NCBI GenBank assembly: GCA_034440575.1 | Contig: JAOTOL010001640.1 | Location: 892,501-956,500 of the forward strand | Direction: 5' to 3' | Length of the DNA: 64,000 nucleotides | Source of the DNA: Imbricaverruca yamaguchii | Taxonomy: Eukaryota > Arthropoda > Thecostraca > Neoverrucidae | Part shown: piece by piece, positions 4,805-58,750 of the stretch | How positions within the stretch are numbered: position 1 is the stretch's first letter | How the letters are laid out: every line of letters begins with the position of its first letter | The notes under the pieces: generated by a model | Databases searched by the model: none | Seen by the model: the letters and a program-made list of their open reading frames with translations, nothing else | Told to the model about the DNA's origin: nothing | Made by a program: the position numbers and the translations under genes

Positions 4805-5740
4805 TAGTGCGCAACTGACTGCCCCCTCTGGTGTACAACGGAGTCTGCTCCCCATCTCCTGCCCCCTCTGATTTACAGCGGAGTCTGCTCCCCCATCTCC
4901 TGCGGCTGCGTACGCCACTGACGGTCCCCTCTGGTGTACAGCGGAGTATGCTCCCCATCTCCTGCGGCTGTGTACGCCACTGACGGTCCCCTCGGGTGTA
5001 GCGGAGTATGCTCCCCATCTCCTGCGGCTGTGTACGCCACTGACGGTCCCCTCTGGTGTACAGCGGAGTCTGCTCCCCCATCTCCTGCGGCTGTGTACGC
5101 CACTGACGGTCCCCTCTGGTGTACAGCGGAGTCTGCTCCCCCACCTGCGGCTGTGTACCCACTAGGTGGTGTACAGCGGAGTCTGCTCCCCATCTCCTGC
5201 GGCTGTGTACGCCACTGACTGCCCCCTCTGATGTACAGCGGAGTATGCTCCCCCCTCTCCTGCGGCTGTGTACGCCACTGACGGTCCCCTCTGGTGTACA
5301 GGGGAGTCTCTTCCCCCCTCTCCTGCGGCTGTGTACGCCACTGACGTCCCCTGGTGTACAGCGGAGTCTGCTCCCCCATCTCCTGCGGCTGTGTACGCCA
5401 CTGACGGTCCCCTCTGGTGTACAGCGGAGTCTGCTCCCCCATCTCCTGCGGCTGTGTACGCCACTGACGGTCCCCTCTGGTGTACAGCGGAGTCTGCTCC
5501 CCCATCTCCTGCGGCTGTGTACGCCACTGACGGTCCCCTCTGGTGTACAGCGGAGTCTGCTCCCCCATCTCCTCGCGGCTGTGTACGCCACTGACGGTCC
5601 CCTCTGGTGTACAGCGGAGTCTGCTCCCCCATCTCCTGCGGCTGTGTACGCCACTGACGGTCCCCTCTGGTGTACAGCGGAGTCTGCTCCCCCATCTCCT
5701 GCGGCTGTGTACGCCACTGACGGTCCCCTCTGGTGTACAG
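4805..5740. repeat. 63-bp minisatellite carrying a splice-acceptor sequence
   Basis: About 14-15 copies of a 63-bp unit that includes CCCCTCTGGTGTACAG followed by CGGAGTCTGCTCC. The final copy runs directly into the inferred SERBP1 exon at 5741, so each unit reproduces the intron end and the first 13 exon bases. Early copies have small deletions; those at 5360-5740 are nearly identical. Confidence 0.9.
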
Positions 5741-5867
5741 CGGAGTCTGCTCCGGCGGCGGGCCGCGGCGGTGCTCCTCCCCGCCGCGGTGGAGGACCTG
5801 GACTGTCGGCGGAACCCCGCGAGCAGCGCAACAACCGTCGCGACTATGAGGAGCGGCCCGACTTCAG
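5741..5867 (+). CDS. SERBP1: SERBP1/Vig-like protein, internal exon (5' partial gene)
   Basis: Inferred first visible exon of an mRNA- and ribosome-binding protein of the HABP4/PAI-RBP1 (SERBP1, Drosophila Vig) family. It reads ...AGRGGAPPRRGGGPG followed by a basic segment ending NNRRDYEERPDF, resembling the Arg-rich region before the family's RGG box. The donor is TTCAG-GTAACC and leaves two bases (AG), which join the single base of the next exon to make Arg. The acceptor is taken as GTGTACAG at 5733-5740, inside the last minisatellite unit. The family's N-terminal segment is not visible, so the true start lies upstream or outside the window. The least certain exon of this gene. Confidence 0.6.
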
Positions 5868-7462
5868 GTAACCGCGCCACGGGAGAGGTGACGACGCTGG
5901 CGACGTTTGTCCGGGCGGTGTCTGCATGCTCCGCGACGTATGCGCCTGTTCTCGTGTGGACAAGCCTGCTACGATCGGCGGGCGTGCCCTTTGTTGTGTG
6001 GTGTTGTGTTGTGTTGTGTTGTGTTGTGTGGTGCGGTGCTGTTGTCATGCGAATATTCCAGAACGGTGTTTAAGTATTAGCAATACCATGCTCGTCGGTC
6101 AGGCTACAATTTTGTGTCGTTAGCTCATCCTTTGGCATGAACCCCGATGCTTGTGTCCGAGGTAGGATTACTGTGTTAGTTAGTTATTTGGGTTTTAGGG
6201 CGCATCAACTGCAGTGGTTATACAGCGCCAGGATTACTGTGTTGCTGACGACTGTACACTGACCGCAAAGGTGTGGGCTCGGTCACTGCAGTTTGGTGCC
6301 CCTTCGTCCTTCAGCATAGCTATGACATCACGCTACGAGGAGAGGCCAGCTCGCCGCCAGGCGCCCCGCTCCCGGTCTCGGTGTGCAGCGAACTCTTCTA
6401 TTTACGTACGGAATGTATCTCTGTCTTGTGGTACAACGGTCGTTTGGCACCTTACATCGCGACACCACACAACATCGTAGCACCTTTGCGTTCTGTGTCC
6501 TATAATGCGACGATAACGCTGGTCGTCGCGTCCCGGTCGATGTTGTCGACTTTTCGGCGATGTCGCACTCATAGAGAACCATCACGGCTGTTTTCCCGGC
6601 CTCCGACGATTGTGCATATTGGCGCGAAATGGTCAGAGAAGTCTGCGCGCGCGGTAAGGTGCTGGGTGTCGGTCGTGGTAATGCAAGTCATCATGAGCCG
6701 CACATTTCACTCGTAACGTGGGAATGCTCTCATTTAGAGGACATTGCTAAAACTAAAGTGATTGGCATATTTGCTTGTTTGCAAGAAGTCCAAATGTTCA
6801 TGCACCTGTTACCATGACTTGCATGTGTCATCAAGCATATTTTTGTCGGTTCAAGGAAAAATCTGGTGCGTGAAATCCGAGCGGATTTTCGTATGGCGGT
6901 GTGTATGATATTGAGATTTTACACTCCCAAATTTTCCTTTAAAAATGGCCATTGTTGCACGGGCAAGTTTTTTTTTGCAGTAAGCCGTCACTAAATGGCT
7001 AAGCGGTTAGGCGAAAAGTGTTCCCAGCTCTCCCAACGGAAAGCATACTTTCGAAATACGAGTGGCAATATCCAGACAGTACAATATTCATCGAATCAAA
7101 AATCCCAAAATTACACCAACTAGAAATACGATCCTGAGTATGTTTATCGTGATATGCATAGCAATGTTCAGTGCTGTCTTGCTCTCCCCTTCGAATGCCG
7201 AGCAGTTTGGCTTTGGGAAGCTTTGGAGCCTGAATACAAATATCCGAGGTTCGTTTCACCGAAGCGGCGGCGTGGGTGTTAATTTGATTCAGCAAGATGT
7301 CAAATGGTGCTTTTTGCCTGCATTTTAGGAGAAGTAAACTCGTTCATTCATCTGTAGGCATGCAGTGCTCCGCTGATCTCGGTGTGTTTTGAAGTGCCTG
7401 CAGTGATGTGTGTGTGTGTGTCGGTGACTGGATTGTGTCAGCAGCGCCATTCTGTTCGGCAG
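5868..7462 (+). other. SERBP1 intron
   Basis: Bounded by GTAACC and TTCGGCAG. It holds a TTGTG microsatellite (about 5995-6034) and an open stretch near 6332 whose residues YEERP echo the end of the upstream exon. I see no good acceptor-donor pair making that a second exon. Otherwise unremarkable. Confidence 0.5.
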
Positions 7463-7636
7463 GGAGGGCGGTGCGCCCCCTCGATTCGGCAGCGGTGGCG
7501 GCGGCGAGGGCGGCGTGGAGCGGGGCCGCGGCAGAGGGCGTGGCCTGGGCGGTCGTGGGCGTGGCCGAGGCCGTGGCGGTGTCATGGACAACCGCGGCAA
7601 GCGCGAGTTTGACCGCCAGTCGGGCTCCGACCGCAG
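7463..7636 (+). CDS. SERBP1: SERBP1/Vig-like protein, RGG-box exon
   Basis: Encodes a Gly-rich segment (EGGAPPRFGSGGGGEGG), then an RGRGRG run, then MDNRGKREFDRQSGSDR. The last block is the best-conserved motif of the family (human SERBP1 has RGKREFDRHSGSDRS), so the assignment is secure. The exon starts with one base that completes an Arg codon from the previous exon and ends with AG before the donor GTGGGA. The product binds RNA and, in vertebrates and flies, 40S ribosomes and eEF2; that role is family knowledge, not visible here. Confidence 0.8.
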
Positions 7637-8737
7637 GTGGGAACCGTCTGTGTGGCTGGGAGCGCCTTCGATCTCCTTCAGGGACACTGAGTCTCGGCGC
7701 ACGCTCCCTCCGTATCTGGATATGCTGGTGGTGCGTGGGTTGTAACCGTGAAGCAATCGGCATTCATTTCCCGAGTTTTGGAACTGTACTTCTGATGTAA
7801 AAATTCAAAATATCGGAACTGAACGTAATTTCCGGTGCGTATTTGCTTTAAAACAAAATTAATAAGAACAATGAGTGCACATGGCTACATTAGGTGATGC
7901 TGACTCCATATGGAGATGTGTACGTGTTAGCTGCAGCGGTAAAATCAGTGACCTATTATTATACATGTATGTTGTATATCGTATGGATTTCGGACGAATC
8001 TTTTTCAGACATTTGACAATTCATCCAGCTTCAAATATTTATTTCACTATTACACCTTGCGGTTACAGGAATTTTCGCAGTCCACGCCTAGTGCCGCGCA
8101 ATTCCAAAATTGATTGACGAACTAAGATGTCATCAATCTTATTCCGGCCTTCTATGAATGGTGTTTTGACCATGCGAGTTTACCTCAACACCCATCTTCG
8201 GTAACAATAGTTCCACGACGTCTTATTACTGACATCTGTGCCGTTTTTCTGTCCAGTTTATGTCGGCATGTTGCGGACCTTGGACGTCATCGCTGGATTG
8301 GCTTCGCCTGTCTGGATATATTTCACACCACGGAAAATACATTAAAGACATTCCACCCTTCCGCCCGCATGCGATCCGGGATACCGTGTAGTTGCCGTAT
8401 CTGCGGACATGGACAAGATGGGGACGAGTAGCCTTGGGGAAAGTTGCCAGTCTCGCCATCGAAAGATGGTGGGTTCGACCTGCCTTACCTGTCTTACCTG
8501 TCGCTACTCTTCGCCCGCGACCAATCGGCGTGAGAGGTTGGCGACGCTACATGACTCAACGGTCGACGTGTCGTAAAACGAATGACCACCGAAATGGACA
8601 AGCTGATGTTTGCACCGCCTTGTGTCCCGACTTCCGACTGCTGATCTGCTCCGTCTCTGTTTTGTTCAGCTCATGCTCGCACCGCCTTGTGTCCCGACTT
8701 CCGACTGCTGATCTGGCACCGTCTGTGTTTTGTTCAG
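7637..8737 (+). other. SERBP1 intron
   Basis: Contains an S1 SINE (8422-8590) and a short direct duplication of GTGTCCCGACTTCCGACTGCTGATCTG-like sequence (about 8620-8715) just before the acceptor. No coding signal. Confidence 0.6.
8422..8590 (+). mobile_element. tRNA-derived SINE (S1)
   Basis: Head GGGACGAGTAGCCTTGGGG, a B-box-like GTGGGTTCGACCTG, the middle GCGACCAATCGGCGTGAGAG and the tail GTCGTAAAACGAATGACC. Inserted in sense orientation in a SERBP1 intron. Confidence 0.85.
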
Positions 8738-9084
8738 CAGCGGAGTGAAGGCGGTGGACAAGCGCGACGGCAGCGGCCGCGGCAACTGGGGCTCCGTGCA
8801 GGACGACCTGGCCGAGCTGGACGAGGCGCACGAGCCGCCGGCCAGCCGGCGAGCCGGAGCCGGAAGCGGCCGAGCCGGCCGCCGCCGAGGTGGAGCCGCC
8901 GCCGGCCGAGGACGCCGGGCCGCAGGAGCTCACGCTGGACGAGTGGAAGAAGCAGCAGGAGCCGCGCGCCCAGCCCAAGTTCAACGTGCGCCGCGCCGGC
9001 GAGGGCGAGAACCAAACCCAGTGGAAGGGCACGTTCGAGCTGAAGAAGAAGAAGAACGAGGACGACGAGTCTGAGGAAGAGTCG
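8738..9084 (+). CDS. SERBP1: SERBP1/Vig-like protein, central exon (apparent frameshift)
   Basis: Begins SGVKAVDKRDGSGRGNWGS, matching family DKR-GGSG-NWG, and continues VQDDLAELDEAHEPP. Further on, in a different frame, it reads PQELTLDEWKKQQEPRAQ and KFNVRRAGEGENQTQWKG, matching the conserved LDEWK and N-IRK-NEG blocks. The frame therefore changes by one base at about 8840-8880, inside GC-rich CCGGCCAGCCGGCGAGCC sequence. Conservation on both sides argues for a sequencing error or allele rather than decay. The acceptor is a tandem TTCAGCAG (NAGNAG): starts at 8738 or 8741 keep the phase and differ by one Ser. The donor is GAGTCG-GTCAGT, phase 0. Confidence 0.85.
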
Positions 9085-9318: not shown

Positions 9319-9930
9319 GACGAGGAGGATGAGGAGGAAGAGCACGTGCGACATGGACGCCCCAAGAACTTCGTCAAGGACATCCAGTTCACCTTCTCGG
9401 ACAGTCGACGTGGCAGTCGCGGCGGCGGCTACCGCGGCGGGGACGACGGCGGCTACCGTGGTGGCTACAGAGGCCGCGGCGGCCGTGGCGGCGAAGAGGG
9501 TGGTTACCGCGGCGGTTACCGCGGCCGCGGTCGTGGCGAGAGCTCCGGTGAGGAGGGTGGCTACCGCGGTGGCTACCGTGGCGGGCGTGGCGAGAGCTCT
9601 GGCGAGGAGGGCGGCTACCGCGGTGGCTACCGTGGCGGGCGCGGCGAGAGCTCTGGCGAGGAGGGCGGCTACCGCGGTGGCTACCGTGGCGGGCGCGGCG
9701 AAGGCTCCGGTGAGGAGGGTGGCTACCGCGGCGGGTACCGTGGCGGGCGCGGTGGAGAGGAGGGCGGCTACCGTGGCGGCCGTGGCGGAGAGGAGGGCGG
9801 TTACCGCGGCGGCGGATACCGTGGTGGCCGTGGCGAGTACCGCGGAGGCAGAGGCTCCACTCCGCGCGGCGCCGCCCGCCAGAACGCGCCCAAGGTCGAC
9901 GACGAGAACGACTTCCCGTCTCTGGGCTAG
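9319..9930 (+). CDS. SERBP1: SERBP1/Vig-like protein, C-terminal RGG-repeat exon
   Basis: Follows the acceptor CGTTTCAG in phase with the previous exon. It encodes an acidic run, RHGRPKNFVKDIQFTFSD, then about 150 residues of tandem GGYRGGYRGGRGESSGEE-type repeats, and ends with DDENDFPSLG and a TAG. The ending matches the family's D-FP-L terminus. Human SERBP1 has a much shorter C-terminal RGG stretch, so the repeats are expanded here. RGG/YRGG tracts are typical arginine-methylation and RNA-binding regions with a tendency to phase separate (family knowledge). Confidence 0.9.
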   Translation, partial: DEEDEEEEHVRHGRPKNFVKDIQFTFSDSRRGSRGGGYRGGDDGGYRGGYRGRGGRGGEEGGYRGGYRGRGRGESSGEEGGYRGGYRGGRGESSGEEGGYRGGYRGGRGESSGEEGGYRGGYRGGRGEGSGEEGGYRGGYRGGRGGEEGGYRGGRGGEEGGYRGGGYRGGRGEYRGGRGSTPRGAARQNAPKVDDENDFPSLG

Positions 9931-22780: not shown

Positions 22781-23214
22781 ACCAAACAAAAGTTACTCCT
22801 TTCGTTAATGAAGCACATGTTAGTTCTTGATTTGTAATAAGGTACAGCTCACGGCATGCATGCATTGCTGTCTTTCCCTTTTGTTTTCTGGTGTCTTTTG
22901 TCCGCACCTACAATGACTGTAATTTTCCACGTTTTAGCAATCATTGTATAGATTGTCGCCCTTAAATTGCAGTGGGATAATTGACATGTGTGCAGCCAAG
23001 TGGTCAAATGACTTGGCCTATTCTGTGGAATGGTACGGAAGTCGATAATTCGGACTCTCACGTCTCCGATACTGCTCGATGGACACGTGTCATGATAAGG
23101 AGTCCAACGAACATCATTTGTGTGCATCATAGCAACCTTCTAATCTTGTGTGGTAATGAATGAATATTTTAATATTTTAATATTGTGCCAGATGTCGTGT
23201 TGTTTGTGTCGTCG

Positions 23215-23441
23215 TGTGTGTTGGTATGTCGGACCATCCTGACTCGACCACCTTTGTCGGGGCTGTGCCATGTGGTGGTTTGTGGCGTGCGTGTGTTTGT
23301 GTCTGTATCGTTGGGTGTGTTGGTGTATCGGACATCCTGACTCGACCACCTTTGTCGGGGCTGTGCCATGTGGCGGTTTGTGACGCGCGCGTGTGTGTGT
23401 TTGTGTAGTCAGGTGTGTGTTTGTGTCGCAGGTGTGTCGAC
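23215..23441 (+). repeat. Two upstream copies of the SAYP start-codon region
   Basis: ATGTCGGACCATCCTGACTC (near 23226) and GTATCGGACATCCTGACTC (near 23325), both followed by GACCACCTTTGTCGGGGC, match the real exon start ATGTCGGACCAGCCCGACTC at 23442. The spacing is about 100-117 bp, with GT-rich sequence between. The first copy keeps an ATG and would read MSDHPDSTT; the real exon reads MSDQPDSTIT. Confidence 0.8.
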
Positions 23442-25829
23442 ATGTCGGACCAGCCCGACTCGACCATCACGTCCACCTGTCGACCGGACAGGCAGCGGCG
23501 CGACGTCGACCCGCCGCCGCGCCGCCCGGCGCCCGCTGACCTGCCCGAGCCGAGCGACCAGCCCGGCCGCGCCGCCTCGCCGCCGCCCGAGCCGGACTCG
23601 GAGGCGGTGGCGGAGCTCGCACAGCGCCGGCCCACACGCGCCCCGGATGCGGCCACGTCGTCAGACGCGTCGCCGTCAAACAACGTAGTGGCAGCTCGAG
23701 GTTCGTCAGATGCAGCCACGTCGTCAGACGTGTCGCCTTCCAACAACGCTGTGGCAGCTCGAGGTTCGTCGGATGCCGCAAGCTCGTCAGATGCGGGGCG
23801 TTCAGCCGACGCTGTAGCAGCTCGAGGTCCCTCGAATGCCGCTAGTTCGTCGGATGTGGGTCCTTCAGATGATGTAGCAGCTGGAGGGCCGTCAGATGCC
23901 GCTAGCTCGTCAGATGCGGGACCTTCAGATGACGCTGTAGCAGTTCTGGGTTCTTCGGATCCTGCTAGCTCATCAGACACCAGACCTTCGAACAACGCTA
24001 TAGCAGTTCGATGCTCTTCGGATGCTGCTAGCTCGTCAGATGCGGGACCTTCAGATGACGATGTAGCAGCTCGAGGTCTCTCGAATGCCGCTAGTTCGTC
24101 AGATACTGGACCTCCAGATGACGCCAGAGCAGCTCGGGGCCCGTCCGTCGCGGCCAGCTCTTCCGACACTACACCAGCTCTTGCTGGTGGCTCGTCGTCA
24201 GCGCGAAGACAGCCCGACGCAGCCAGCTCTTCCGACACGACACCAGCTCTTGCTGGTGGCTCGTCGTCAGCGCGAAGACAGCCCGACGCAGCCAGCTCTT
24301 CCGACACGACACCAGCTCTTGCTGGTGGCTCGTCGTCAGCGCGAAGACGGCCCGACGCAGCCAGCTCTTCCGATACGACACCAGTTCTTGCTGGTGGCTC
24401 GTCGTCAGCGCGAAGACGGCCCGACGCAGCCAGCTCTTCCGATACGACACCGGTTCTTGCTGGTGGCTCGTCGTCAGCGCGAAGACGGCCCGACGCAGCC
24501 AGCTCTTCCGATACGACACCGGTTCTTGCTGGTGGCTCGTCATCACCGCGAAGACCGCCCGACGCAGCCAGCTCTTCCGATACGGCTCCGGTGTTTGCCA
24601 CGCACCGCCCTCTGGCCACTGACGCTGCCAGCTCATCCGACACGGCGCCGACTGCCGGCGGTCCGTCCACAACACGTCGGCCGGCCGATGCCGCCAGCTC
24701 CTCGGACAGTCGACGGCCGGCGGCCGCCTGCCGTCCGACACAGCACGTGAACGCGGCCAGCTCCTCCGACACGAGGTCGGCCGGGATCGCCGCGGCGGGC
24801 GGCGTCGGGCCGGCCGACGCCGTGTCGTCCGGCCAGCCGGTCGCGTCGGTCCGACGGCCGGCGGCCGCCGCCAGCTCGTCGGACGCGGCGTCGGCGCGCC
24901 GCCGCACCGGCGGCGTGGCGGCGGACGAGCCGGGCGACGGCGCGCCCACGTCCAGCCAGCAGCAGCGGCGGCGACACGACGCCTGCGAGCCGGACGAGGG
25001 CGGCGCCGGCCGGCCGGCCAGCCGCAGTCGACACGACTCGGAGGCCGAGGCGGTGGAGGTGGTCGGCAGCAACGCCGCGAGATCGGCGGCGGCGGCGGCG
25101 CGCCCGCGCCCACGCCGACCGGCCGATCAGCCCGAGTCCAGTGCTGACTGCCGGCCGGTGCCGTGGCGACCCAACGGCGACCAGCAGGCGGCCATCTCCA
25201 GCTCGGGCGCGATGCGGCCGCGGCTCGCGCCGGCCGCCACCGCGCAGCACGGCGAGATCTCCGGCTCGAGTCGCGTGTGGCTGCCGCAGCTGGTGCCCAC
25301 CTCGCAGCACCAGGAGGTGACCGGCTCGGCGGGCGGCTCGCGCGGCGTGCGCAGCCCCGCCGGCGCCGACTCGCAGGGCTCGGACGTGGGCTCGGCGCGC
25401 AAGGACAGCCGCTCGCCGGGCCACGCCGGCGGCGCCGACTCGACCTTCAGCCGGGCGACGGCCGGGCCGCGCGACGACGGTCCGGCCACCAGCAGCACGG
25501 GCCTCAAGCGGCCGGCGCTGGTGCCCGACTATTCCGACTCTTCCGACGACGACTCGCCGTGCGCCTCGCCCGGCGGGAAGGTGGCGCGGCTCGACGAGGA
25601 GATATCGACCAGCCAGGCGGCGGCGCCGGCCGGCGGCTCGCACCGGCAGGACTCGCAGGAGGCGGGCATCTCGACCAGCGCCGTCGACGAGCTGGCCGAG
25701 CTGGCCGAGCTCAGCCCCGACACGGGCAACGTGTCCGCCACGGACGGCGCCGCCGCCGCCGCCCCCGCCGCGTCCGTCTCGACGGCCACCGCCGGCTCGG
25801 CGGCCGGCGTCGGCCGACAAGCTGAGTGA
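23442..25829 (+). CDS. PHF10: SAYP/PHF10 homologue, exon 1 part A (disordered N-terminus)
   Basis: Start of a PBAP-type chromatin-remodeler subunit; the assignment rests on the downstream exons. The Met at 23442 follows a possible acceptor TGTCGCAG (23431) and begins MSDQPDSTITSTCRPDRQRR. The rest is low-complexity and Ser/Asp/Ala-rich: first diverged SSDA-S-SSDAGPSDD units, then seven near-identical 20-residue repeats (DAASSSDTTP followed by VLAGGSSSARR). The frame ends with a TGA at 25827-25829, 20 bases before the next long frame opens one base out of register. No intron signals are convincing there, so a single-base error around 25740-25825 is the simplest explanation. Drosophila SAYP also has a long, poorly conserved N-terminus. 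Confidence 0.6.
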   Translation: MSDQPDSTITSTCRPDRQRRDVDPPPRRPAPADLPEPSDQPGRAASPPPEPDSEAVAELAQRRPTRAPDAATSSDASPSNNVVAARGSSDAATSSDVSPSNNAVAARGSSDAASSSDAGRSADAVAARGPSNAASSSDVGPSDDVAAGGPSDAASSSDAGPSDDAVAVLGSSDPASSSDTRPSNNAIAVRCSSDAASSSDAGPSDDDVAARGLSNAASSSDTGPPDDARAARGPSVAASSSDTTPALAGGSSSARRQPDAASSSDTTPALAGGSSSARRQPDAASSSDTTPALAGGSSSARRRPDAASSSDTTPVLAGGSSSARRRPDAASSSDTTPVLAGGSSSARRRPDAASSSDTTPVLAGGSSSPRRPPDAASSSDTAPVFATHRPLATDAASSSDTAPTAGGPSTTRRPADAASSSDSRRPAAACRPTQHVNAASSSDTRSAGIAAAGGVGPADAVSSGQPVASVRRPAAAASSSDAASARRRTGGVAADEPGDGAPTSSQQQRRRHDACEPDEGGAGRPASRSRHDSEAEAVEVVGSNAARSAAAAARPRPRRPADQPESSADCRPVPWRPNGDQQAAISSSGAMRPRLAPAATAQHGEISGSSRVWLPQLVPTSQHQEVTGSAGGSRGVRSPAGADSQGSDVGSARKDSRSPGHAGGADSTFSRATAGPRDDGPATSSTGLKRPALVPDYSDSSDDDSPCASPGGKVARLDEEISTSQAAAPAGGSHRQDSQEAGISTSAVDELAELAELSPDTGNVSATDGAAAAAPAASVSTATAGSAAGVGRQAE
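24160..24600 (+). repeat. Coding 60-bp repeats (20 residues, about 7 copies)
   Basis: Tandem units of CCAGCTCTTCCGACACGACA followed by CCAGCTCTTGCTGGTGGCTC and GTCGTCAGCGCGAAGAC; late copies have GGTTCTTG. Near-identity implies recent expansion or homogenisation. Confidence 0.9.
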
Positions 25830-28800
25830 CCAGCAGAGCTCCGAGGCGGTGGCGGCGGGGCCCTCCAGCGACGGCGACGCCGCCATGTTGGCACACCTCG
25901 ATCCCGAGCCGGCCGTCAGCGGCAGCAGCGACGTGCTCGTCTCGCGCGCTGCTGACGACGCCGACACCGACTCGCGAATCGACTCGCACGTCGACGACGA
26001 CGACGACGACGATGACGGGCCGATGGTGCGGCCGCCGCCCGTCGACTCGCTAGATGACGACTCGCGCATCGACTCGCACGGCACGGACTCTGTCGACAAC
26101 TCCGACGCGCGTCTCGACTCGCTGGAGCACGCCGACTCGCGGATCGACTCGCACGACAACGCCGACGACTCGCCGGACATGCTGGGCGGCGCCGTCAGCT
26201 CGGGTCGGCCTGTCGGCATCGTCGGCGAGCAGGCGGGCACATGCCAGAGTTCGGGGGACGCTGAGGCGTCCGGCTCTCCGCCCGGGGCGGGAGAGGCGCC
26301 GGACGTACCTGCTGTCACCTCTGCCCCGGCACCGACGTCGCCACCCTCCACCGGACCACCGCCCCGCGCGGCCACATCTGCGCAGAGCACCGGCCTTCAC
26401 TCGACGCCACCAGCGACCGCCGAGCCGCCTCTGCCGGCGAACTCAGAGCCGGACCAGACTGCCGCCGGCCGCCCGCCAGGCCGAGACGCGCCTACACCGG
26501 CACCTGCGGCGGCCGCTCCATCGGCCGCCGCGAGTGGTGTCTCGGCCGCGAGCCAATCGGCGGCCGCCGCCCCTGTGACGGTCGACACCAACAGCTGCGC
26601 CGGCCCGCAGAAGGGTGACTCTGGGCGGGTGCCGCCGACCGCCACCTCCGCCACCACCGCCACCACCGCCACCACCGCCACTTCCGCCACTTCCGCCACC
26701 ACCGCCACCACCGCCACCACAGCCACCACCGCCACCACCGCCACCACCGCCACCACCGCCACCACCGCCACCACCACCGCCACCACCGCCGCCACCACCG
26801 CCACCACCACTCCGTCCCCGCCGGGCCGCTCGTCGGTGGACGCGAACAGCAGCGGAGAGCAAAAGGTGTCAGCGACGTCATCGCCATCGGACTGCCGCTC
26901 AGACGCGGTGCGGCGTGTGGAGGCAACGGGCTGCGACCAGCCTGAAGCTATCGCAGCTGCAGTGCCGGCATCGGCCGCCAGCAGCGCGCCAGCCTCGAGG
27001 GGAGGTGCGCCGACTCCTGGCGTGTCGGGCGTGTGCCCGTCGGCGGCGGATCGGCCGGCCGACGGCGACGAGGCGGGTCAGAGCCAAATTCCTGCCGCCG
27101 CGACGTCACAGTCGATCGGCGCGCCAGGCCCGGCGGTCGACAGTCACGTGGACAGCGACCAGGGAGTCGCCGCTGCCGCTGAGGTCGTGCTGCACGAGAA
27201 GCCGCCTCTGGATACCGCAACCGCACCCTTGGCCTCAGCCTCGACCCAAGCCGAAGCCGGGGCCGCCACCGAGGCCACGGCCGGGTCTCGAGTCCCAGTC
27301 GCGGCCGCAGCTGGGATGGCTGACCCGCTGTCAGCGGCAACCGCAGCCGCAGCCGCAGCCACAACCATGGCTGCTGCTAAAATCACCGTCCCAATCCCAG
27401 CACCCGAATCAGCCTCAGTCGCTGTAGCAGCACCTGAATCGGCCGCAGCCTCTGACACAGCTTCTGTCACAGTTTTTACCACAGCTTCAGGTACAGTCTC
27501 TACCGCAGCTGCTGCCACGGCGTCAGACCCGGCCGCAGCCTCGGTGATAGAGGCTCGGGCTGCAGCCGGTGCGGGCCGGTCCGAGCGACCGAGGCGTCAG
27601 TCCCGAGACGCCATCCCACCCGGATCTCACCCGAGTCGCTCGCCTCGTCGAGAGACTGCCGGCTCACCGCGCTCCGAGCCGACAAAGTCTCCGCGTTCAG
27701 AGTCGACCAGGTCACCCCGATCCGAGCGAGCCAAGTCGCCCCGTTCCGACCCGGCCAAGTCGCCCCGGCTGGACCAGTCCAGGTCACAGCGGCTAGACCC
27801 TCAGAAGTCGCCTCGACATGAATCGAGTCGGTCGACGCGGTCTGACGGCGTCGCCAAGTTGACTAAAGTTGACACTGCCAAGTCGCCTAAATCGGAGGCT
27901 AAAACGTCGCCCAGATCTGATAAATCGCCCAGATCTGATAAATCGCCCAGATCTGATAAATCGCCCAGATCTGATAAGTCGCCCAAGTCTGATAAGTCGC
28001 CGAAATCGGATAAGTCGCCCAGATCTGACGTACCAAAATCGCCCAAGTCTGACGCTGCCAAGTCGCTTAAATCTGATCAAGCGAAATCCCCCAAGCTTGA
28101 CGCCGCCAAACTACCTAGATCTGAATCCGCCAAGTCGCCGCGACGGGACGTCTCGAAGTCGCCGAGATCTGACTCGGTCAAGTCTCGGTCGGAGGCGGGC
28201 CCGTCGCCGAAGTCTGACTCGGGCAGATCTCCCCGCTCTGATGCGGGCCGCTCGCCGGGCCGGAGTGGCTCGGGGGAGCCGGAGCCGGGCCGCTCGCTGC
28301 GGCAGGTGTCGCGCGACAGCGAGGGCATCGCCGCCATCGACGCGTTCCTGCAGGAGACGGCCACGGAGCCGGTGGTGCGCCTCAACCGGCTGGTGGTGGC
28401 CGACAGCGACTCCGCGGCTGCGACAGCTGGCGCAGCTGCGGCAGCAGTCGCCGGACCGGCCCCTGCCGGCTCAGCTGTCGTGAGCGCCGTTGCCGGTGCC
28501 GACGGCGTCGCCCTCGCTGCTGAGGGAGCGCCCGCCCAGAGCGCCGCCGCCACTGCTGATGTGGGCTCGGCGCCAAGCGTCGCTGCCGCCGCCGATGCCA
28601 TCCCAGTCGCCGCCCCCGTGAAGCGTAAGCGAGGTCGGCCGCGCAAGAACCCGCTGCCGGAGAACGTCGCTGCGGCCCCGGGCGCCACCGTGGCCTCAGG
28701 CGTGACCGCCACACTCAGCTCGACCGCACCCCCGGGTGTGGTCGCGACCCCGGGCAAGCCGGTTCGAACCCGGGGCGGCGACGCAGCTGTCGCCGCAACA

Positions 28801-29482
28801 CCAGGCGCCGCCACCGCCGCACCAGGAGCCGTCACCACCGCACCAAGAGCCGCCACCACCGCCACACCAGGAGCCGCCACCACCGCCACACCGGCCACCG
28901 CCACCGCCACCGCCACCGCCACCGCCACCGCCACCGCTACCGCCACCGCTACCGCCACCGCTGCCGCCACACCAGGCACCGGCGACCTAGCAGTGCGGAA
29001 GAGTGGCCGTCCGCGCAAGAAGAAGCTGCTGGAGGACGAGCGGCAGGAGCTGGACAGTCGCCGGGTGAGAGACGCCAAGGCGAGGATGGCGGAGGAGCGG
29101 ATGCGCGCGGCTTCCGGCGGGGCCGAGAAGGCCGCCAAGGTCAAGAAGGAAGACGACGTCGGCGCCAAGGCGAAGGTGAAGACGGGAACCGTGGGCAGAC
29201 CCCGCAAGGAGGACGCGGCCAAGCTGCGGGCTGGCAGGGAAAAGGCGGTGACGCCTCCGACGGCGACACCGACTCCCGTCAAGGGGAAGCCGGGCCGGAA
29301 GCGCAAGACGCCGGTGGCTGACGCTGCGCCGCCGCCTGAAGTGGTGGTGAAGCAGGAGCAAATTGCCGCCGCCGCGGAGGTAGAGCACAAGCCGGAGGTC
29401 AGTGTGTGGCAGGTGTCCTCTGGTGACTCCAATGAAGCCGTCGGCGAGCAGCCGCCCATCAAGAAGATCCGACTCAAGAAAG
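25810..29482 (+). CDS. PHF10: SAYP/PHF10 homologue, exon 1 part B (AT-hook region)
   Basis: Continuation of exon 1 after the apparent frame break, opening ADKLSDQQSSEAVAAGPSSD. It contains DSRIDSH repeats (about 25970-26160), a Thr/Ala microsatellite (26640-26815), a run of KSPRS/SDKSPRSD units (27690-28260), then AT-hook-like motifs KRKRGRPRKNPL (28620), KSGRPRKKKL (28993), VGRPRKED (29190) and KPGRKRKTP (29287). AT-hooks bind the DNA minor groove; the SP-rich block could be a phosphorylation target (inference). The exon ends LKK plus one base before the donor GTTAGT and joins the next exon in phase to give Asp. With part A the exon is about 6 kb. Confidence 0.7.
26640..26815 (+). repeat. 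Coding (CCACCG)n-type microsatellite
   Basis: ACC-GCC repeats giving Thr-Ala-Thr-Thr runs, with a few TCC interruptions. A second, shorter tract lies at 28880-28965. Antisense frames over both are shadows. Confidence 0.85.
27690..28260 (+). repeat. Coding KSPRS/SDKSPRSD repeats
   Basis: About 35 loosely repeated Lys-Ser-Pro-Arg-Ser units. The core at 27910-28030 is a 15-bp tandem repeat of AGATCTGATAAATCGCCC. Confidence 0.85.
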
Positions 29483-30524: not shown

Positions 30525-31419
30525 ATGGCACACCTGCCAAGCCGCGTGGTCCAAAGCCAAAGCGCCCGCCGTCCGCCGAGCCGCCGCCGGAGCCGGAGCC
30601 ATCGAGTCGCGAGAAGAAGAGGCGGCGGCGAGGCGAGCCGGCCGCCGCAGTGCCGCCCCCTCAGGCCGACGACAACGCCGTGATGGACGCCGAGGACGCC
30701 ATGCCGTTACTGCCACAGCCCGCGGCACCACCACCGCCGCCGACGGCTTCCCAGCCAGCCAAGGCTTCATCTCCACCGGCGGGAGAGTCACCCCCATCGG
30801 CGGGACCGACACCGCCACCGGCGGGACAGTCACCCCCATCGGCGGGACCGACACCGCCACCGGCGGGACAGTCACCCCCATCGGCGGGACCGACACCGCC
30901 ACCGGCGGAGCTGTCGACCCCATCGGCAGAACCGTCACTCCCATCGGCGGAGCCGTCACTTCCATCGGCGGAACCGTCACTTCCATCGGCGGAACCGTCA
31001 CCCCCACCGGCGGAACCGTCACCCCCACCGGCGGAAATGTCACCCCCTTCGGCGGAACCGTCACCCCCTCCAGCGGAACTGTCCCTCCCACCAGTCGAGC
31101 CGTCTCCCCCGCCGGCGGAACCATCGCCCCCTCCGGCAGAGCCAGCACCCCCTCCGGCAGAGGTGTCACCCTCTCCGGTGGAGCCGTCGTCAGTGCGTGC
31201 GGAGTCGGCAGCGGTGTCCGAGTCGGTGCCACTGCCGCCGCCGGCCGGGCCGGAGCCGGAGGACGCGCCGCCGCCGGCCGGCACCAATGCGGCGCCGCCG
31301 CCGCGCCAGCCGCCGCCGCCGCCCGTCGAAGAGGACTCGCAGAGCTCGGTGCGCTCCCAGGGCAGCCGTGGCAGTCGCGGCAGCCGCAAGGCTCGCAAAG
31401 GAGCGTTCGACCTCAGCAG
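30525..31419 (+). CDS. PHF10: SAYP/PHF10 homologue, exon 2
   Basis: Reads GTPAKPRGPKPKRPPSAEPP (a further AT-hook-like KPRGPKPKR), then REKKRRRRGEP, a long Pro/Ser-rich repeat region, and finally SSVRSQGSRGSRGSRKARKG and AFDLS. The phase fits both neighbours: it starts with AT completing an Asp codon and ends AG before GTGAGG. The Pro-rich part (30777-31190) is built on PPSAGPTPPPAGQS units, three of them identical. The extreme end is basic and Ser-rich and leads into the conserved SAY region. Assigned by phase, composition and position; the repeats themselves are not family-specific. Confidence 0.7.
30775..31190 (+). repeat. Coding Pro/Ser-rich repeats (42-bp core)
   Basis: Three near-identical copies of a 42-bp unit (GGCGGGACCGACACCGCCAC, then CGGCGGGACAGTCACCCCCAT) followed by shorter, diverged units (CATCGGCGGAACCGTCACCC). 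Confidence 0.85.
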
Positions 31420-33352: not shown

Positions 33353-33537
33353 CCAGAAGTCCGCGGCGGCGGCCGAGCGTGCCGCGCCGGCAGCGCCGCC
33401 GGCCGAGCCCGGCCCCGGCCCCGGCCCGCTGGTGCAGTACCGCTGGCCGCGCGACGACCCCAGCGCCGAGCTGTACATGCTGCAGGAGCAGCTGGCCGTG
33501 CACCTCGACCTGGCCGCCTTCCAGATGCGCTTCCCCG
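33353..33537 (+). CDS. PHF10: SAYP/PHF10 homologue, exon 3 (start of SAY domain)
   Basis: Encodes an Ala/Pro/Gly-rich lead, then LVQYRWPRDDPSAELYMLQE and QLAVHLDLAAFQMRFP. Vertebrate PHF10 has the corresponding YTLQEQ-SEYLGVKSFKRKYP, the start of the conserved SAY module that sits in the PBAF/PBAP complex. The exon starts with C, completing a Ser codon with AG from exon 2, and ends with one G before the donor GTCAGT; exon 4 supplies AC to make the conserved Asp of FPDL. The donor and the last exon bases are the seed of the 30-bp array that follows. Confidence 0.88.
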
Positions 33538-34195
33538 GTCAGTGGCGGAGCCGGGGCCGCTTCCCCGGTCAGTGGCGGCGCAGGGGCCGCTTCCCCGGTC
33601 AGTGGCGGCGCAGGGTCGCTTCCCCGGTCTGTGGCGGAGCCGGGGCCGGTTCCCGGTCAGTGGCGGAGCCGGGGCCGCTTCCCGGTTAGTGGCGGAGCCG
33701 GGGCCGGTTCCCCGGTCAGTGGCGGAGCCGGAGCCGCTTCCCCGGTCAGTGGCGGCGCAGGGGCCGCTTCCCCGGTCAGTGGCGGAGCCGGGGCCGCCTC
33801 TCCGGTCAGTGGCGGAGCCAGGGCCGCTTCCACGGCCAGTGGCGGCGCCGGGGCCGCTTCCCCGGTCAGTGGCGGCGCAGGGGCCACTTCCCCGGTCAGT
33901 GGCGGTGCAGGGGCCTCTTCCCCGGTCAGTGGCGGCACAGGGGCCGCTTCCACGGTCAGTGGCGGAGCCGGGGCCGCTTCCCGGTCAGTGGGGGCGCAGG
34001 GGCCGCTTCCCCGTCAGTGGCGGCGCAGGGGCCGCTTCCCCGGTCAGTGGCGGCACAGGGGCCGCTTCCCGGTCAGTGGCGGAGCCGGGGCCGCTTCCCG
34101 GTCTGTGGCGAGCCGGGGCCGCCTCTCGGTCAGTGGCGGAGCCGGGCCGCTTACCCGGTCAGTGGTGGAGCCGGGGCCGCCTCTCCGGTCGTTGA
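33531..34195 (+). repeat. 30-bp minisatellite made from the exon 3 donor
   Basis: About 22 copies of TTCCCCGGTCAGTGGCGGAG plus CCGGGGCCGC. The first copy contains the real exon end TTCCCCG and its donor GTCAGT, so each unit repeats the junction. Most units are exactly 30 bp, so the frame stays open and reads RFPGQWRSRG repeatedly; a few 29-bp units shift it. Confidence 0.92.
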
Positions 34196-35912: not shown

Positions 35913-36119
35913 ACCTGGCGCGACGGCCGGTGGAGGCGGACGAGCGCGCCTTCCTGCTGGAGCAGCGCGCCGTCTCGGAGGCGCAGGCCCAGGCCGGTCT
36001 GACGTCACTCACCAGCGCTGACGTCACCGACCTGCTGCTGCGCGAGTTCCCCGACCGAGCCGACGAGTTCCGCCGCCTGATCGACCAGCGCCGGCTGCTC
36101 GAGGCGCCCAAGGCCCAAG
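35913..36119 (+). CDS. PHF10: SAYP/PHF10 homologue, exon 4 (SAY domain)
   Basis: Reads (D)LARRPVEADERAFLLEQRAV, then SEAQAQAGLTSLTSADVTDL, LLREFPDRADEFRRLI and DQRRLLEAPKAQ. PHF10 has DLERR, a charged helix with LYLRE, then LGLTALRSDEVIDL and EYPAKHAEY at the same spacing, so homology is clear along the exon. It begins at ACCGACAG-ACCTGG and ends CAAG before GTGGGT, one base into a codon, matching the acceptor chosen for exon 5. No frame disruption. Confidence 0.92.
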
Positions 36120-37307: not shown

Positions 37308-37554
37308 CGGCGCTGACCCCGGCCGAGGTGGAGCGACAGCGGCTGCAGTCGCTGGTGCGGCAGGCGGCGCGTCAGGCGGCCGCCTGGAACGCCCAGCTGA
37401 ACCGCGACCGGCGCGACGAGCGGCGCGCCTCGCTCGACCTGCAGACGTTCACGGTGCACTACCCGCAGCGGCGGCGGCCGGCGCAGACCGCCGGCCGGCT
37501 CGGCCACTACCCGGTGGCCGTGCTGCCCGGCCAGTTTACCGACTACTACCGCAG
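37308..37554 (+). CDS. PHF10: SAYP/PHF10 homologue, exon 5 (most conserved SAY segment)
   Basis: Encodes LTPAEVERQRLQSLVRQAAR, then QAAAWNAQLNRDRRDERRAS and LDLQTFTVHYPQ, and ends GHYPVAVLPGQFTDYYR. PHF10 has [23 protein letters not shown] and SSYPVALIPGQFQEYYKR, the strongest match in the window. It starts with CG, completing Ala after exon 4's single base, and ends TACCGCAG before GTCAGT, two bases into an Arg codon. Its last bases and donor seed the 24-bp array that follows. Confidence 0.95.
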
Positions 37555-38510
37555 GTCAGTCACCGACTACTACCGCAGGTCAGTCCCAGCTCACCGACTA
37601 CTACCGCAGGTCAGTCACCGACTACTACCGCAGGTCAGTCCCAGCTCACCGGCTACTACCGCAGGTCAGTCACCGACTACTACCGCAGGTAGTAGTCAGG
37701 TCACCGACTACTACCCAGGTCACCGACTACTACCGCAGGTCAGTCACCGACTACTACCGCAGGTCAGTCGCCGGCCAGTCCACCGACTACTACCGCAGGA
37801 CAGTCACCGACTACTACCGCAGGACAGTCGCCGACTACTACCGCAGGTCAGTCACCGACTACTACCGCAGGACAGTACACCACAAGTCACCGACTACTAC
37901 CGCAGGTCAGTCACCGACTACTACCGCAGGTCAGTCACCGACTACTACCGCAGGTCAGTCGCCGACTACTACCGCAGGACGCCGGCTATCACCGACTACT
38001 ACCGCAGGGAGTCACCGACTACTACCGCAGGCAGTCGCCGACACACCGCAGCAGGACTACTACCGCAGGCAGTCCCGACTACTACCGCAGGTCAGTCACC
38101 GACTACTACCGCAGGCAGTGCCGACTACTACCGCAGGACAGTCGCCGCTATCCCGACTACTACCGCAGGACACCGCCGACTACTACCGCAGGTCAGTCAC
38201 CGACTACTACCGCAGGTCAGTCACCGACTACTACCGCAGGTCAGTCACCGACTACTACCGCAGGTCAGTCCACCGACTACTACCGCAGGACAGTCGCCGG
38301 CCAGTCCACCGACTACTACCGCAGGACAGTCGCCGACTACTACCGCATGTCAGTCCCAGCTCACCGACTACTACCGCAGGTCAGTCGCCGGCCAGTCCAC
38401 CGACTACTACCGCAGGTCAGTCGCCGGCCAGTTCACCGACTACTACCGCAGGTCAGTCGCCGGCCAGTTCACCGACTACTACCGCAGGTCAGTCGCCGGC
38501 CGCTCGCCGA
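37530..38510 (+). repeat. 24-bp minisatellite made from the exon 5 donor
   Basis: About 35-40 copies of ACCGACTACTACCGCAG then GTCAGTC, the exon 5 end and its donor. Longer variants include GCCGGCCAGTTC or CCAGCTC; others replace GTCAGT with GACAGT. The last copies (38390-38500) are 36-bp units that also repeat the exon's GGCCAGTT. Exonic and intronic parts are copied together. Confidence 0.93.
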
Positions 38511-41881: not shown

Positions 41882-42004
41882 GTACTCCAGCAACGACCTC
41901 AAGTACCTGCCGGTCAACACGGTGATGGGCACGCGGTCGGCCGAGGAGCTCGGCTCGGACGGTTCCGACTCGGACTCGGGAGACTCCAGCTCCGAAAGAT
42001 CCAG
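41882..42004 (+). CDS. PHF10: SAYP/PHF10 homologue, exon 6
   Basis: After the acceptor CTCGGCAG, a G completes the Arg codon from exon 5 and the exon reads YSSNDLKYLPVNTVMGTRSA, then EELGSDGSDSDSGDSSSERS. PHF10 continues YSPDELRYLPLNTALYEPP and then an acidic Ser/Asp segment, so the order and position fit. It ends TCCAG before GTAAAT; exon 7 supplies C to make Ser. The Ser/Asp tail may be a casein-kinase-type acidic linker (inference). Confidence 0.88.
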
Positions 42005-42330
42005 GTAAATGTCGCTCGGTACACTGTCGGATCCAGGCAACTGCTGTCCGTAACACTTGCAGGTCCACACTGCTGCTCGGCACGCCGGCGGATCCAGGCA
42101 ACTGCCTCCAGCTAGGTGAAATTGATCCAGACAACTGACACCAGGTAACTGGAATGAATCCAGGCAGCAGTCCTCGCTGTAGTTGATTCAGGCAGCAGTC
42201 CTCGCTGTAGTTGACGCAGACAACTGTCGCTGCTTAGTCGGGATGGACCCAGGCAGCTGGCACCGTCCTGCCGGTGGGTCCGATTCTGGCAACCGTCACC
42301 ATCACACGGCGACCTCCACCTTCATTGTTC
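42000..42330 (+). repeat. Degenerate repeats around the exon 6 donor
   Basis: GATCCAG followed by GTAA or GCAACTG recurs at 42000, 42032, 42092, 42124 and 42164, plus a direct repeat of CAGGCAGCAGTCCTCGCTGTA (42169, 42189). The exon end itself is AGATCCAG-GTAAAT, so these may be diverged copies of the junction. Confidence 0.6.
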
Positions 42331-50365: not shown

Positions 50366-50506
50366 CTCGTCCAGCGGTGACAGCTCGCAGACGGCCGACA
50401 CCCGCAGCGAGCTGGACCCTCAGCCGGAGGCCGGCGCCCGTCCCGGCACCGTCTGCCGCGTCTGCAACGGCACCAAGCCCGGCAAACAGCTGCTGCACTG
50501 CTCAAA
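50366..50506 (+). CDS. PHF10: SAYP/PHF10 homologue, exon 7 (first PHD finger, N-terminal half)
   Basis: Follows the acceptor GTGTTGCAG and reads SSSGDSSQTADTRSELDPQP, then GTVCRVCNGTKPGKQLLHCS plus K. PHF10 begins its first PHD finger with AICGICLKGKESN...PLIHCSQCD, so C-x2-C and H-C match. It ends two bases into the Lys codon at CTCAAA before GTGGGA, and exon 8 supplies G, restoring CSKCDSSGHP. The donor GTGGGA is non-optimal but the fusion is exact. PHD fingers of this protein bind histone H3 tails in the DPF arrangement (family knowledge). Confidence 0.88.
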
Positions 50507-52338: not shown

Positions 52339-52671
52339 TACCAGTCTCATACGGAGATTCATGAAATTATTATGAGATTTATGCTGTGCGTTTTAACATA
52401 TCGTATCTTTCAACGTGGCCCTCGTTCTATGTCTCATATAGACTCTTGAAATGTGATGCACGAATGATGTACGTTGATTCTAATACCTCGGGATATGCGT
52501 CGATTCCAATGACTCGTGTGCTGTGACATAAATGTTGTGCTCTTGTGTTCCGACCTTTTTCCTGTGTCTTGGTCTTGGTCCTGTGTTCTTAAGCCCCGGT
52601 AACTATAGATGCGAGATGTACTCCGTGGTGGGAACCTTGCCAGCTGAGACGATGATACAGATCCTCTCACC

Positions 52672-52856
52672 GTGGAGTGTGTGTCGGTCGGCAGGTGCGG
52701 GTCCTCTGACCCTTGAGTGTGTCGGTCGGCAGGTGCGGATCCTCTGACCTTGGAGTGTGTGTCAGTCAGCAGGTGCGGATCCTCTGTGGAGGGTGTGTCG
52801 GTCGGCAGATCGGCAGGTGCGGATCCTCTGACCTCGGAGTGTGTGTCGGTCGGCAG
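52672..52856 (+). repeat. About 39-bp repeats made from the exon 8 acceptor
   Basis: About five copies of TGTGTCGGTCGGCAG then GTGCGGATCCTCTGACC; spacings between CAGGTGCG motifs are 38-44 bp. The last one is the real acceptor TCGGTCGGCAG followed by exon 8 GTGCGACTCG, so each unit carries the acceptor plus the first exonic bases. Confidence 0.88.
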
Positions 52857-53018
52857 GTGCGACTCGTCGGGCCACCCGCAGTGTCTGGAGCTGTCGACGG
52901 ACATGGTGGGCCGGCTGCGCGCCTACCCCTGGCAGTGCATGGACTGCAAGACGTGCATGACATGCGGCTCAGCCGACGACGAGGACAAGATGATCTTCTG
53001 CGACTTCTGCGACCGCGG
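52857..53018 (+). CDS. PHF10: SAYP/PHF10 homologue, exon 8 (PHD1 end and PHD2 start)
   Basis: Reads CDSSGHPQCLELSTDMVGRL, then RAYPWQCMDCKTCMTCGSAD and DEDKMIFCDFCDRG. PHF10 has CDNSGHPSCLDM, TYPWQCMECKTCIICG and MMFCDMCDRG at the same positions, so all zinc ligands are present. It ends GACCGCGG before GTGAGT; exon 9 supplies G to make the Gly of CDRGYH. The tandem PHD arrangement with the shared WQC-EC linker is characteristic of the PHF10/DPF group. Confidence 0.96.
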
Positions 53019-53232: not shown

Positions 53233-53550
53233 GTGGACAGGTACAACATCTACTGATTGGGTGGTGGTATCACTTTCCCTCGTGGACAGGTACCACATCT
53301 ACTGCGTGGGTCTGCGGAAGGTGCCCACCGGCCGCTGGCACTGTGTGGCTGGTGGTAACACGTACCGTGTGGACAGGTACCACATCTACTGCGTGGGTCT
53401 GCGGAAGGTGCCCACCGGCCGCTGGCACTGTGTGGCTGGTGGTAACACGTGCCGTGTGGACAGGTACCACATCTACTGCGTGGGTCTGCGGAAGGTGCCC
53501 ACCGGCCGCTGGCACTGTGTGGCTGGTGGTAACACGTGCCGTGTGGACAG
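53233..53550 (+). repeat. Tandemly repeated PHD2 exon segment (87-bp units)
   Basis: Three full upstream copies begin at 53290, 53377 and 53464, before the terminal copy at 53551. Each has TGGACAG then GTACCACATCTACTGCGTGG and reads YHIYCVGLRKVPTGRWHC followed by VAGGNT(Y/C)RVDR. A degenerate copy with a stop lies at 53233-53277. The 87-bp period keeps all four copies in one open frame. Confidence 0.93.
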
Positions 53551-53701
53551 GTACCACATCTACTGCGTGGGTCTGCGGAAGGTGCCCACCGGCCGCTGGC
53601 ACTGTGTGGAGTGCGCCCGCTGTCAGACGTGCGGCACCGCCGACCCCACCGGCGGCCTCGACCAGCCGGAGCTGAACCGCGCCCCCGAGTGGGCCCACCA
53701 G
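53551..53701 (+). CDS. PHF10: SAYP/PHF10 homologue, exon 9 (end of PHD2), canonical acceptor
   Basis: The terminal copy reads YHIYCVGLRKVPTGRWHC, then VECARCQTCGTADPTGGLDQ and PELNRAPEWAHQ before the donor GTACGC (phase 0). PHF10 has [21 protein letters not shown]. Only this copy supplies the last Cys pair (HCVEC); the three upstream copies have VAGG instead. Use of this acceptor gives one normal finger; use of the first acceptor (53290) would insert three extra 29-residue units in frame. The CARCQTCG continuation beyond PHD2 suggests the longer invertebrate SAYP form. Later exons were not found in the window. Confidence 0.9.
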
Positions 53702-56205: not shown

Positions 56206-56420
56206 AGCGGGATAAGACTGGGTGAGTGTGACGACACATGGCTATCGGCATTGAGCAGACATGAGATGGACGCTGACGGTACTCCAACTATGCAAGACGA
56301 ACGTACCTGGCGCAGCTGGCGTCGTCTCGGTATGGTATGGTCCGTCCATCGAGACTCGGGGTACGGTAATGGGCGGCGTCGTCTCGGTACGGTACGGACC
56401 GTTGAGCGAGGTCCTATATA

Positions 56421-57500: not shown

Positions 57501-57504
57501 CCTA

Positions 57505-57930: not shown

Positions 57931-57934
57931 AGCT

Positions 57935-58115
57935 GCAACTGGCCGTGAGCCCCAAGTCGTGGCTCTGACCCGGACAGCTGCTGCTGGCCATCAGCCATGG
58001 GTCGTGGCTCTGACCCGGACAGCTGCAGCTGGCCATCAGCTGTGGGTCGTGGCTTTGACCCGGACAGCTGCAGCTGGCCATCAGCTGCGGGTCGTGACTT
58101 TGATCCGGACAGCTG
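57935..58115 (-). repeat. About 48-bp repeats, four copies
   Basis: Units of GACCCGGACAGCTGCAGCTG then GCCATCAGCTGTGGGTCGTG, on the 3' side of the possible minus-strand WD40 exon. Confidence 0.85.
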
Positions 58116-58164
58116 TGGATGAGATCACAGGTAGCTGGTGGCACGCCAGCCTCCAGTGGCTGCG

Positions 58165-58335
58165 GCGGGCGGGTGGTGATCAGACACACGGTAGGGCGGA
58201 CGGGAGGTGACCCGACACGGTAGCGTGGGCGGGTGATGACCCGACATAGGGTAGGGCGGGCGGGTGGTGACCCGACACAGGGTAGCGCGGGCGGGTGGTG
58301 ACCCGACACGGTAGCGTGGGCGGGCTGGCGGGTGA
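58165..58335 (-). repeat. About 28-bp repeats following a possible minus-strand donor
   Basis: About six copies of GGCGGGTGGTGACCCGACAC plus GGTAGCGT. On the minus strand the unit reads GTGTCGGGTCACCACCC, resembling the start of the intron after the WD40-like exon (GTGTCACCCGCC). Confidence 0.8.
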
Positions 58336-58393
58336 CACGTGTGACGTCTGACAGTCCAGTGCCTGCACGCTGCCGTCTGCATAGCCGACCACC
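58331..58393 (-). CDS. Possible exon of a WD40-repeat protein
   Basis: The minus strand reads VVGYADGSVQALDCQTSHV after a CAAAG acceptor-like site. V-x-Y-A-D-G-S-V is a typical WD40 blade strand. It is short and would need partner exons; the GC-rich segment at 58745-58934 and frames near 60.2 and 60.5 kb are candidates. MED16 has a similar AF-DGSV-I strand, but that identity is a guess. Confidence 0.35.
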
Positions 58394-58399
58394 CTTTGA

Positions 58400-58750
58400 C
58401 CGAACCAGCCGCCACAGTGTGTGTCACATTACCGGACCAGCCGCCACAGTGTGTGTCACATTACCGAACCAGCCGCCACAGTCACGCGCAAGTGTGTCAC
58501 ATTACCGAACCAGCCGCCACAGTGTGTGTCACATTACCGAACCAGCCGCCACAGTGTGTGTCACATTACCGAACCAGCCGCCACAGTGTGTGTCACATTA
58601 CCGAACCAGCCGCCACAGTGTGTGTCACATTACCGAACCAGCCGCCACAGTGTGTGTCACATTACCGGACCAGCCGCCACAGTGTGTGTCACATTACCGG
58701 ACCAGCAGCTAGAGTTTGTGTCACGTGACAGGACCAGCGGCTGCAGTTTG
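58400..58750 (-). repeat. 32-bp minisatellite beside a possible exon
   Basis: About ten copies of CACATTACCGAACCAGCCGC plus CACAGTGTGTGT. On the minus strand the unit contains GCTG-GTTCGGTAATGTG, matching the CTGCTG-GTCCGGTCACGTG that ends the possible exon at 58745-58934. Confidence 0.92.

Follow-up and report, generated by a model that had tools for sequence, protein, structure and literature searches.

Seven minisatellite arrays, each with a unit that contains a modelled exon-intron boundary, are found in two adjacent genes of the barnacle Imbricaverruca yamaguchii. The window analysed is a 64,000-nucleotide stretch of contig JAOTOL010001640.1 (assembly GCA_034440575.1, positions 892,501 to 956,500 of the forward strand), in which two neighbouring plus-strand genes, SERBP1 and SAYP/PHF10, are modelled with 25 splice junctions in total. 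The arrays are of a kind that is already known from lancelet genes, where they are called 'mirages', and they are unusually dense here. They are probably near-neutral minisatellites, in which the duplicated splice sites are carried as passive decoys.

Arrays over splice junctions

When the window is searched with Tandem Repeats Finder (TRF), 103 rows are obtained, which merge into 37 loci with a period of at least 10. Nine of these loci lie inside coding exons, seven contain a modelled splice junction of SERBP1 or SAYP/PHF10, and 21 lie elsewhere. The junction-containing loci cover 7 of the 25 modelled junctions and affect both kinds of boundary, namely three donors (exons E3, E5 and E6 of SAYP) and four acceptors (one of SERBP1 and those of SAYP E1, E8 and E9). 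Their coordinates are listed in Table 1. In a gapped similarity test, six of the seven arrays exceed the 99.9% level of shuffled sequence. The sequence-only reading of this DNA, made before the present analysis, placed the five core arrays (SERBP1, E3, E5, E8 and E9) where TRF and unit alignment also find them. It listed the E6 donor as a weak case; TRF detects this array, but with a score of 16 it lies no higher than the 99% shuffle level, and the donor GT is replaced by GC or AC in all four copies. It missed the seventh array, which covers the start codon and the putative acceptor of E1, the start-codon exon. The E1 array scores 26 as compared with a shuffle maximum of 18, and the acceptor AG is lost in its copies. 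Two further similarities are left out of the count of junction arrays. The E3 acceptor scores 17 in the gapped test, just below the 99.9% threshold, through a match within the E3 donor array, to a copy rich in GC. The region 8648-8738 is nearly a duplicate of the last part of the intron that precedes the SERBP1 exon at 8741, and ends two bases short of the junction.

The unit alignment of the five core arrays indicates that the splice-site dinucleotide is retained in most copies. The AG is present in 15 of 16 copies of the SERBP1 array, in all five copies of the E8 array and in all four copies of the E9 array, and the donor GT is present in 22 of 23 copies of the E3 array. The end of exon E5, TACTACCGCAG, is present 33 times, and is followed by GTCAGT 20 times (the real site included), by GACAGT six times and by other bases seven times. 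The number of decoys with an intact core is 10 for SERBP1, 20 for E3, 19 for E5, and four each for E8 and E9 (57 in total), so that the earlier estimate of 4-40 decoys per junction is lowered to 4-20. The exonic part of the unit amounts to 13 of 63 bases in SERBP1, 10 of 30 in E3, 17 of 24 in E5, 5 of 40 in E8 and 56 of 87 in E9, and the earlier description of a few exonic bases is wrong for E5 and E9. The exonic bases of the E9 unit encode part of a PHD finger. Likewise, the base periods of four arrays (63, 30, 24 and 87) are multiples of three, as had been remarked, but those of the other three (98, ~32 and 40) are not.

In 21 pairwise comparisons of the seven units no clear relation is detected, the lowest shuffle fractions being 0.02, 0.03 and 0.05 (uncorrected), and the arrays therefore look like separate events. 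Some of them have a visible history. E9 shows two rounds of duplication: one is seen in a mutated copy of the unit at 53241, outside the array, which contains a stop when read in frame with the exon, and the other in the near-identical 87-bp set. An inverted-repeat element at 3249-4282, with main arms that are 91-94% complementary, encloses two detached units of the SERBP1 type. This arrangement suggests that the SERBP1 array is not recent.

Array frequency and base composition

Plain coverage by repeats shows no excess at junctions. Six of the 25 junctions are covered, as compared with 20.3% of 600 random non-coding positions, and when a stricter ungapped rule is used, 5 of 25 junctions are covered, as compared with 14-16% of 4671 positions. 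These values agree with an explanation by coincidence and base composition, in which the many minisatellites of this stretch preferentially lie in GC-rich DNA, such as that of exons, and meet junctions no more often than other sites. The GC content is indeed 72% in the exons and 48% in the non-coding DNA after collapse of the arrays. Coverage, however, counts grown copies. Each junction goes back to one ancestral point, whereas the interiors of arrays consist of grown copies, and for this reason a seed test is considered fairer than the position test. In the seed test, each array is represented by one unit, and GC-matched DNA gives the proportion of such units that would be expected to span a junction; the nine coding arrays are excluded beforehand, as are three arrays of low GC content at 15.4-15.6 kb. 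In the whole window, 7 of 25 arrays span a junction as compared with 1.1 expected (P 4e-5), and in the gene bodies 7 of 17 arrays do so as compared with 1.4-1.5 expected (P ~1e-4, the range over both versions being 4e-5 to 1.2e-4). When the two weakest arrays (E1 and E6) are removed, five remain (P 0.003-0.009), and six of the nine strong arrays (score of at least 200) in the gene bodies span a junction. The expectation is 0.4 when GC is not matched and rises to 1.1-1.5 when it is matched, indicating that base composition explains part of the excess. The seed test was devised after the null result of the position test, on one window chosen for the feature, and its P values are therefore descriptive of this window and not genome-wide. 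Within the window, junction arrays are more frequent than the GC-matched seed model predicts, and coincidence with base composition is unlikely to be the whole explanation. The proposal that minisatellites are seeded on splice junctions is partly supported: the arrays are real, look separate and exceed GC-matched seeds here, with no excess in plain coverage.

After GC matching, an excess of about five- to sixfold is left. Mutation that prefers exon edges, survivorship, or chance (the window having been chosen for this feature) could each produce it. The stronger statement, that exon edges are preferred birthplaces of minisatellites in this crustacean lineage and that redundant splice sites are carried by a large part of its genes, is doubtful. 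If it were true, alternative splice sites, new introns and in-frame repeats in proteins would keep arising from such arrays, and the gain of introns through tandem duplication could be watched while under way.

Fate of the duplicated splice sites

According to the explanation preferred here, a short tandem duplication would have happened to span an exon-intron boundary. The exon-proximal site and the whole exon would stay intact, and the extra copies would be removed with the intron, so that the mRNA would be unchanged. If the exon-proximal site is chosen, the duplication is silent, and would therefore escape selection and be free to expand. The array would then grow within the intron through slippage or unequal exchange, carrying the copies of the splice site along as passive decoys, and separate events of this type would have taken place at seven boundaries of two adjacent GC-rich genes in a minisatellite-rich stretch. 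Duplications that lie wholly inside an exon are not silent, and survive here only as multiples of three. The base period is divisible by three in all nine purely coding arrays, in four of the seven junction arrays and in 8 of the 21 others. This result indicates that the reading-frame filter is strict within exons and not clear at junctions, as would be expected if the junction copies are spliced out. The difference between silent duplication at a boundary and non-silent duplication in an exon can explain why frame-breaking, exon-starting arrays are found at exon edges, but alone it does not account for the excess over intronic seeds of like composition.

The gene models agree with splicing at the exon-proximal sites. 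Eight SAYP exons, E2-E9, form one stop-free frame with PHF10 homology when spliced in this way, and the exon model of SERBP1 and SAYP requires no new intron bounded by duplicated copies. No sign of a gained intron or of decoy use is seen within the window. When the five core arrays are pooled, mismatches are found at 19 of 573 decoy splice-site positions and at 106 of 2498 positions elsewhere (P 0.35). The counts are taken from a unit alignment that is forced in some of its E5 rows, where units of 24 and 36 bp are mixed. The decoy splice sites are thus not conserved overall, as far as the aligned copies indicate, and 13 of the 33 copies of the E5 exon end no longer precede GTCAGT. In an alignment of eight PHF10 proteins, only some of which span each junction, no array-derived residues are present at the E3, E5, E8 and E9 junctions. 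In SERBP1, the first residues of the exon at 5741-5867, ESAP, are encoded within the 63-bp unit; they belong to the sequence ESAPAAGRGG at the start of the exon, which lies in a moderately conserved stretch (SAP in two and GRGG in two of five aligned relatives).

Besides the coverage result, three points weigh against near-neutral arrays with passive decoys. The decoy donors of E3 show fewer mismatches than the other unit positions (4/180 as compared with 39/483, P 0.004), a signal that fades to P 0.18 once two linked variant columns are dropped. The number of decoys in phase, 29 of 57, is more than one third, with a P of 0.005 that assumes an independence which the copies lack. Finally, the exon-proximal sites are presumed, from the sequence alone, to be the ones that are used.

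Use of sites beyond the exon-proximal ones, including possible formation of introns, is improbable. Eighteen of the 29 in-phase decoys are also free of stops, and the frame stays open across the three 87-bp copies that precede E9, as decoy use would allow. However, the remaining 28 of the 57 decoys shift the frame, the decoy sites are not conserved overall, and the homologues that span the E3, E5, E8 and E9 junctions contain no array peptide. Extra E9 copies would also insert a repeated piece of the PHD finger. Precedents exist in both directions: repeats at boundaries are reported to form introns in human genes (PMC2812944), and a duplication across a boundary to have given a new potato intron (PMC4974935), but regular splicing is reported for the lancelet arrays (PMC3087553, PMC3902484).

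That some copies are artefacts of long-read assembly is very improbable. Three E9 units are one base apart, the last SERBP1 copies are nearly identical, and one lancelet mirage is reported to have been misassembled in a draft genome (PMC3087553). The reading frame breaks once within the third modelled exon of SERBP1 and once within SAYP E1 (~25300-25830), and SERBP1 matches PF04774 as two pieces, one on each side of its single frameshift. These breaks are either assembly indels or small unrecognised introns. They indicate that the consensus may carry indel errors, and single-base indels in the arrays are therefore unsafe as evidence. The E3, E5 and SERBP1 arrays, however, contain many distinct variants, and the diverged copies (that at 53241, the detached units at 3638-3748, and the E6 and E1 arrays) are unlike errors of collapse or expansion. 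Least probable of all is that the arrays are coding, with the exon starting or ending at the outermost copy: the copies of the E9 array can be read in frame without a stop and the exon frame likewise continues through the E5 array, but the repeats are absent from the aligned homologues at these junctions, the frame is broken by the copy at 53241 and in much of the E3 array, and read-through of the E9 copies places the best Pfam PHD stretch in the last copy.

Known boundary arrays and other features of the window

The minisatellite of the human IFI6 gene (6-16/G1P3), described in 1995, is reportedly a single 12-bp donor array, the first repeats of which are said to be used alternatively. The E3 and E5 arrays, which start at the donor of the exon and repeat it, resemble the array so described. 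A closer likeness is found in the lancelet. Tandem duplications of intron-exon boundaries, termed mirages, are published for several lancelet genes (Adh, the globins BflGb6 and BflGb9, troponin C and PGBD5). The kind is thus not new, and the same route to intron gain is proposed in these reports (PMC3087553, PMC3902484). According to the authors of the globin work, their data and those on Adh suggest that regular splicing is undisturbed; they also state that haplotypes differ in the copies and that introns could arise from the arrays. As in the lancelet, an exon-intron boundary lies within the barnacle unit, this applies to donors as well as to acceptors, and AG or GT is present in many, not all, of the copies; the published units of 10-160 bp cover the range of the barnacle units (PMC3087553, PMC3902484). 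The present case differs in that the animal is a crustacean and not a cephalochordate, in that seven boundaries of two neighbouring genes are affected within 64 kb, in that an exon end is present in up to 33 copies, and in that the arrays are known from the sequence of one assembly only.

Intron gain by tandem duplication across a boundary (the AGGT model) has an example in the potato RNA-dependent RNA polymerase (RdRp) gene, in which a new intron is reported (PMC4974935). There too splice signals are provided by a duplicated intron-exon boundary, but no new intron is seen here. Variable internal tandem repeats at exon-intron boundaries of human segmental duplications may form novel introns; these differ in that they belong to recent primate paralogues with transcript support, and many arrays per gene are not claimed in the accessible part of that report (PMC2812944). 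As far as the corresponding reports are accessible, no junction array is seen in prawn lectins, in which the repeats lie inside an exon (PMC7536079), or in earthworm metallothionein, which has a repetitive intron (PMC12783039). No arthropod case of a mirage is recognised in the open-licence PubMed Central literature, as judged mostly by titles and the openings of abstracts.

Mirages were once described as a possible peculiarity of lancelets. A second, distant lineage with seven of them in two genes suggests that they are a by-product of minisatellite-rich, GC-rich genomes. With its naturally occurring decoys, the locus lends itself to the question of how the spliceosome selects one among 5 to 21 near-identical sites, and newly arising introns could be looked for in it.

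Table 1. Tandem arrays, modelled exons and repeated motifs in the window (positions counted from its first nucleotide)
Feature	Position	Strand	Unit (bp)	Junction	Method
SERBP1 acceptor array	4819..5753	+	63	5741	TRF, unit alignment
SAYP E1 acceptor array, 2.3 copies	23197..23437	+	98	23432 (putative)	TRF
SAYP E3 donor array	33528..34190	+	30	33538	TRF, unit alignment
SAYP E5 donor array	37527..38510	+	24/36	37555	TRF, unit alignment
SAYP E6 donor array, degenerate	41998..42214	+	~32	42005	TRF
SAYP E8 acceptor array	52660..52861	+	40	52857	TRF, unit alignment
SAYP E9 acceptor array	53258..53609	+	87	53551; decoys 53290, 53377, 53464	TRF, unit alignment
Detached SERBP1-type units, two copies	3638..3748	+	63		Repeat search
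Coding-exon tandem arrays, nine	8837-8911, 9421-9813, 23646-24584, 26086-26167, 27442-27518, 27664-27800, 27907-28109, 28793-28959, 30773-31188		all divisible by three
SERBP1 modelled exons	5741-5867, 7463-7636, 8741-9084, 9319-9930	+
SAYP/PHF10 exons E1-E5	E1 23432-29482, E2 30525-31419, E3 33353-33537, E4 35913-36119, E5 37308-37554	+
SAYP/PHF10 exons E6-E9	E6 41882-42004, E7 50366-50506, E8 52857-53018, E9 53551-53701	+
Matches to GGTTCGAGTCTCACCT	3179, 21049, 21586, 32869, 35647, 36661, 38791, 51466, 53779, 54785, 55529

The SAYP protein has PHD-finger family matches in Pfam, and its best match among solved structures is to chains named PHD finger protein 10 (E 1.2e-33). Among the 28 database proteins that match SAYP, the highest identity, 60% over 56% of the query, is that of a protein named PHF10 from the barnacle Amphibalanus amphitrite. 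In the public Amphibalanus PHF10 model (P0011), the start of the E4 region is missing and the model ends near the end of E6; gene prediction perhaps failed near the junctions that bear arrays here. A tblastn search with ten SAYP and SERBP1 homologues gives no convincing SAYP exon past 53.7 kb and no convincing SERBP1 exon before 5.7 kb, and the corresponding ends of the two genes are therefore not found in the window. A third gene had been suspected behind two possible minus-strand donors at 58.3-58.75 kb. It gains no support, as two minus-strand open reading frames there give no Pfam match above the cut-off (SWIM at E 0.012 falls below it) and the ten homologues give no convincing tblastn match.

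Between SERBP1 and SAYP, a minus-strand open frame at 11967-12635 matches PF15874 (Il2rg, E 5.9e-8), a model that presumably covers CXorf65-like proteins; this frame is possibly another gene. Downstream of SAYP E9, an open frame at 53849-54670 matches RNase H weakly (E 0.013, short of the cut-off) and is possibly a remnant of a retroelement. Finally, eleven matches with at most two mismatches to GGTTCGAGTCTCACCT, which is similar to a tRNA B box, are present in the window, where 0.04 would be expected. Several of them lie in a longer repeated stretch that, by eye, looks like a tRNA-derived short interspersed nuclear element.

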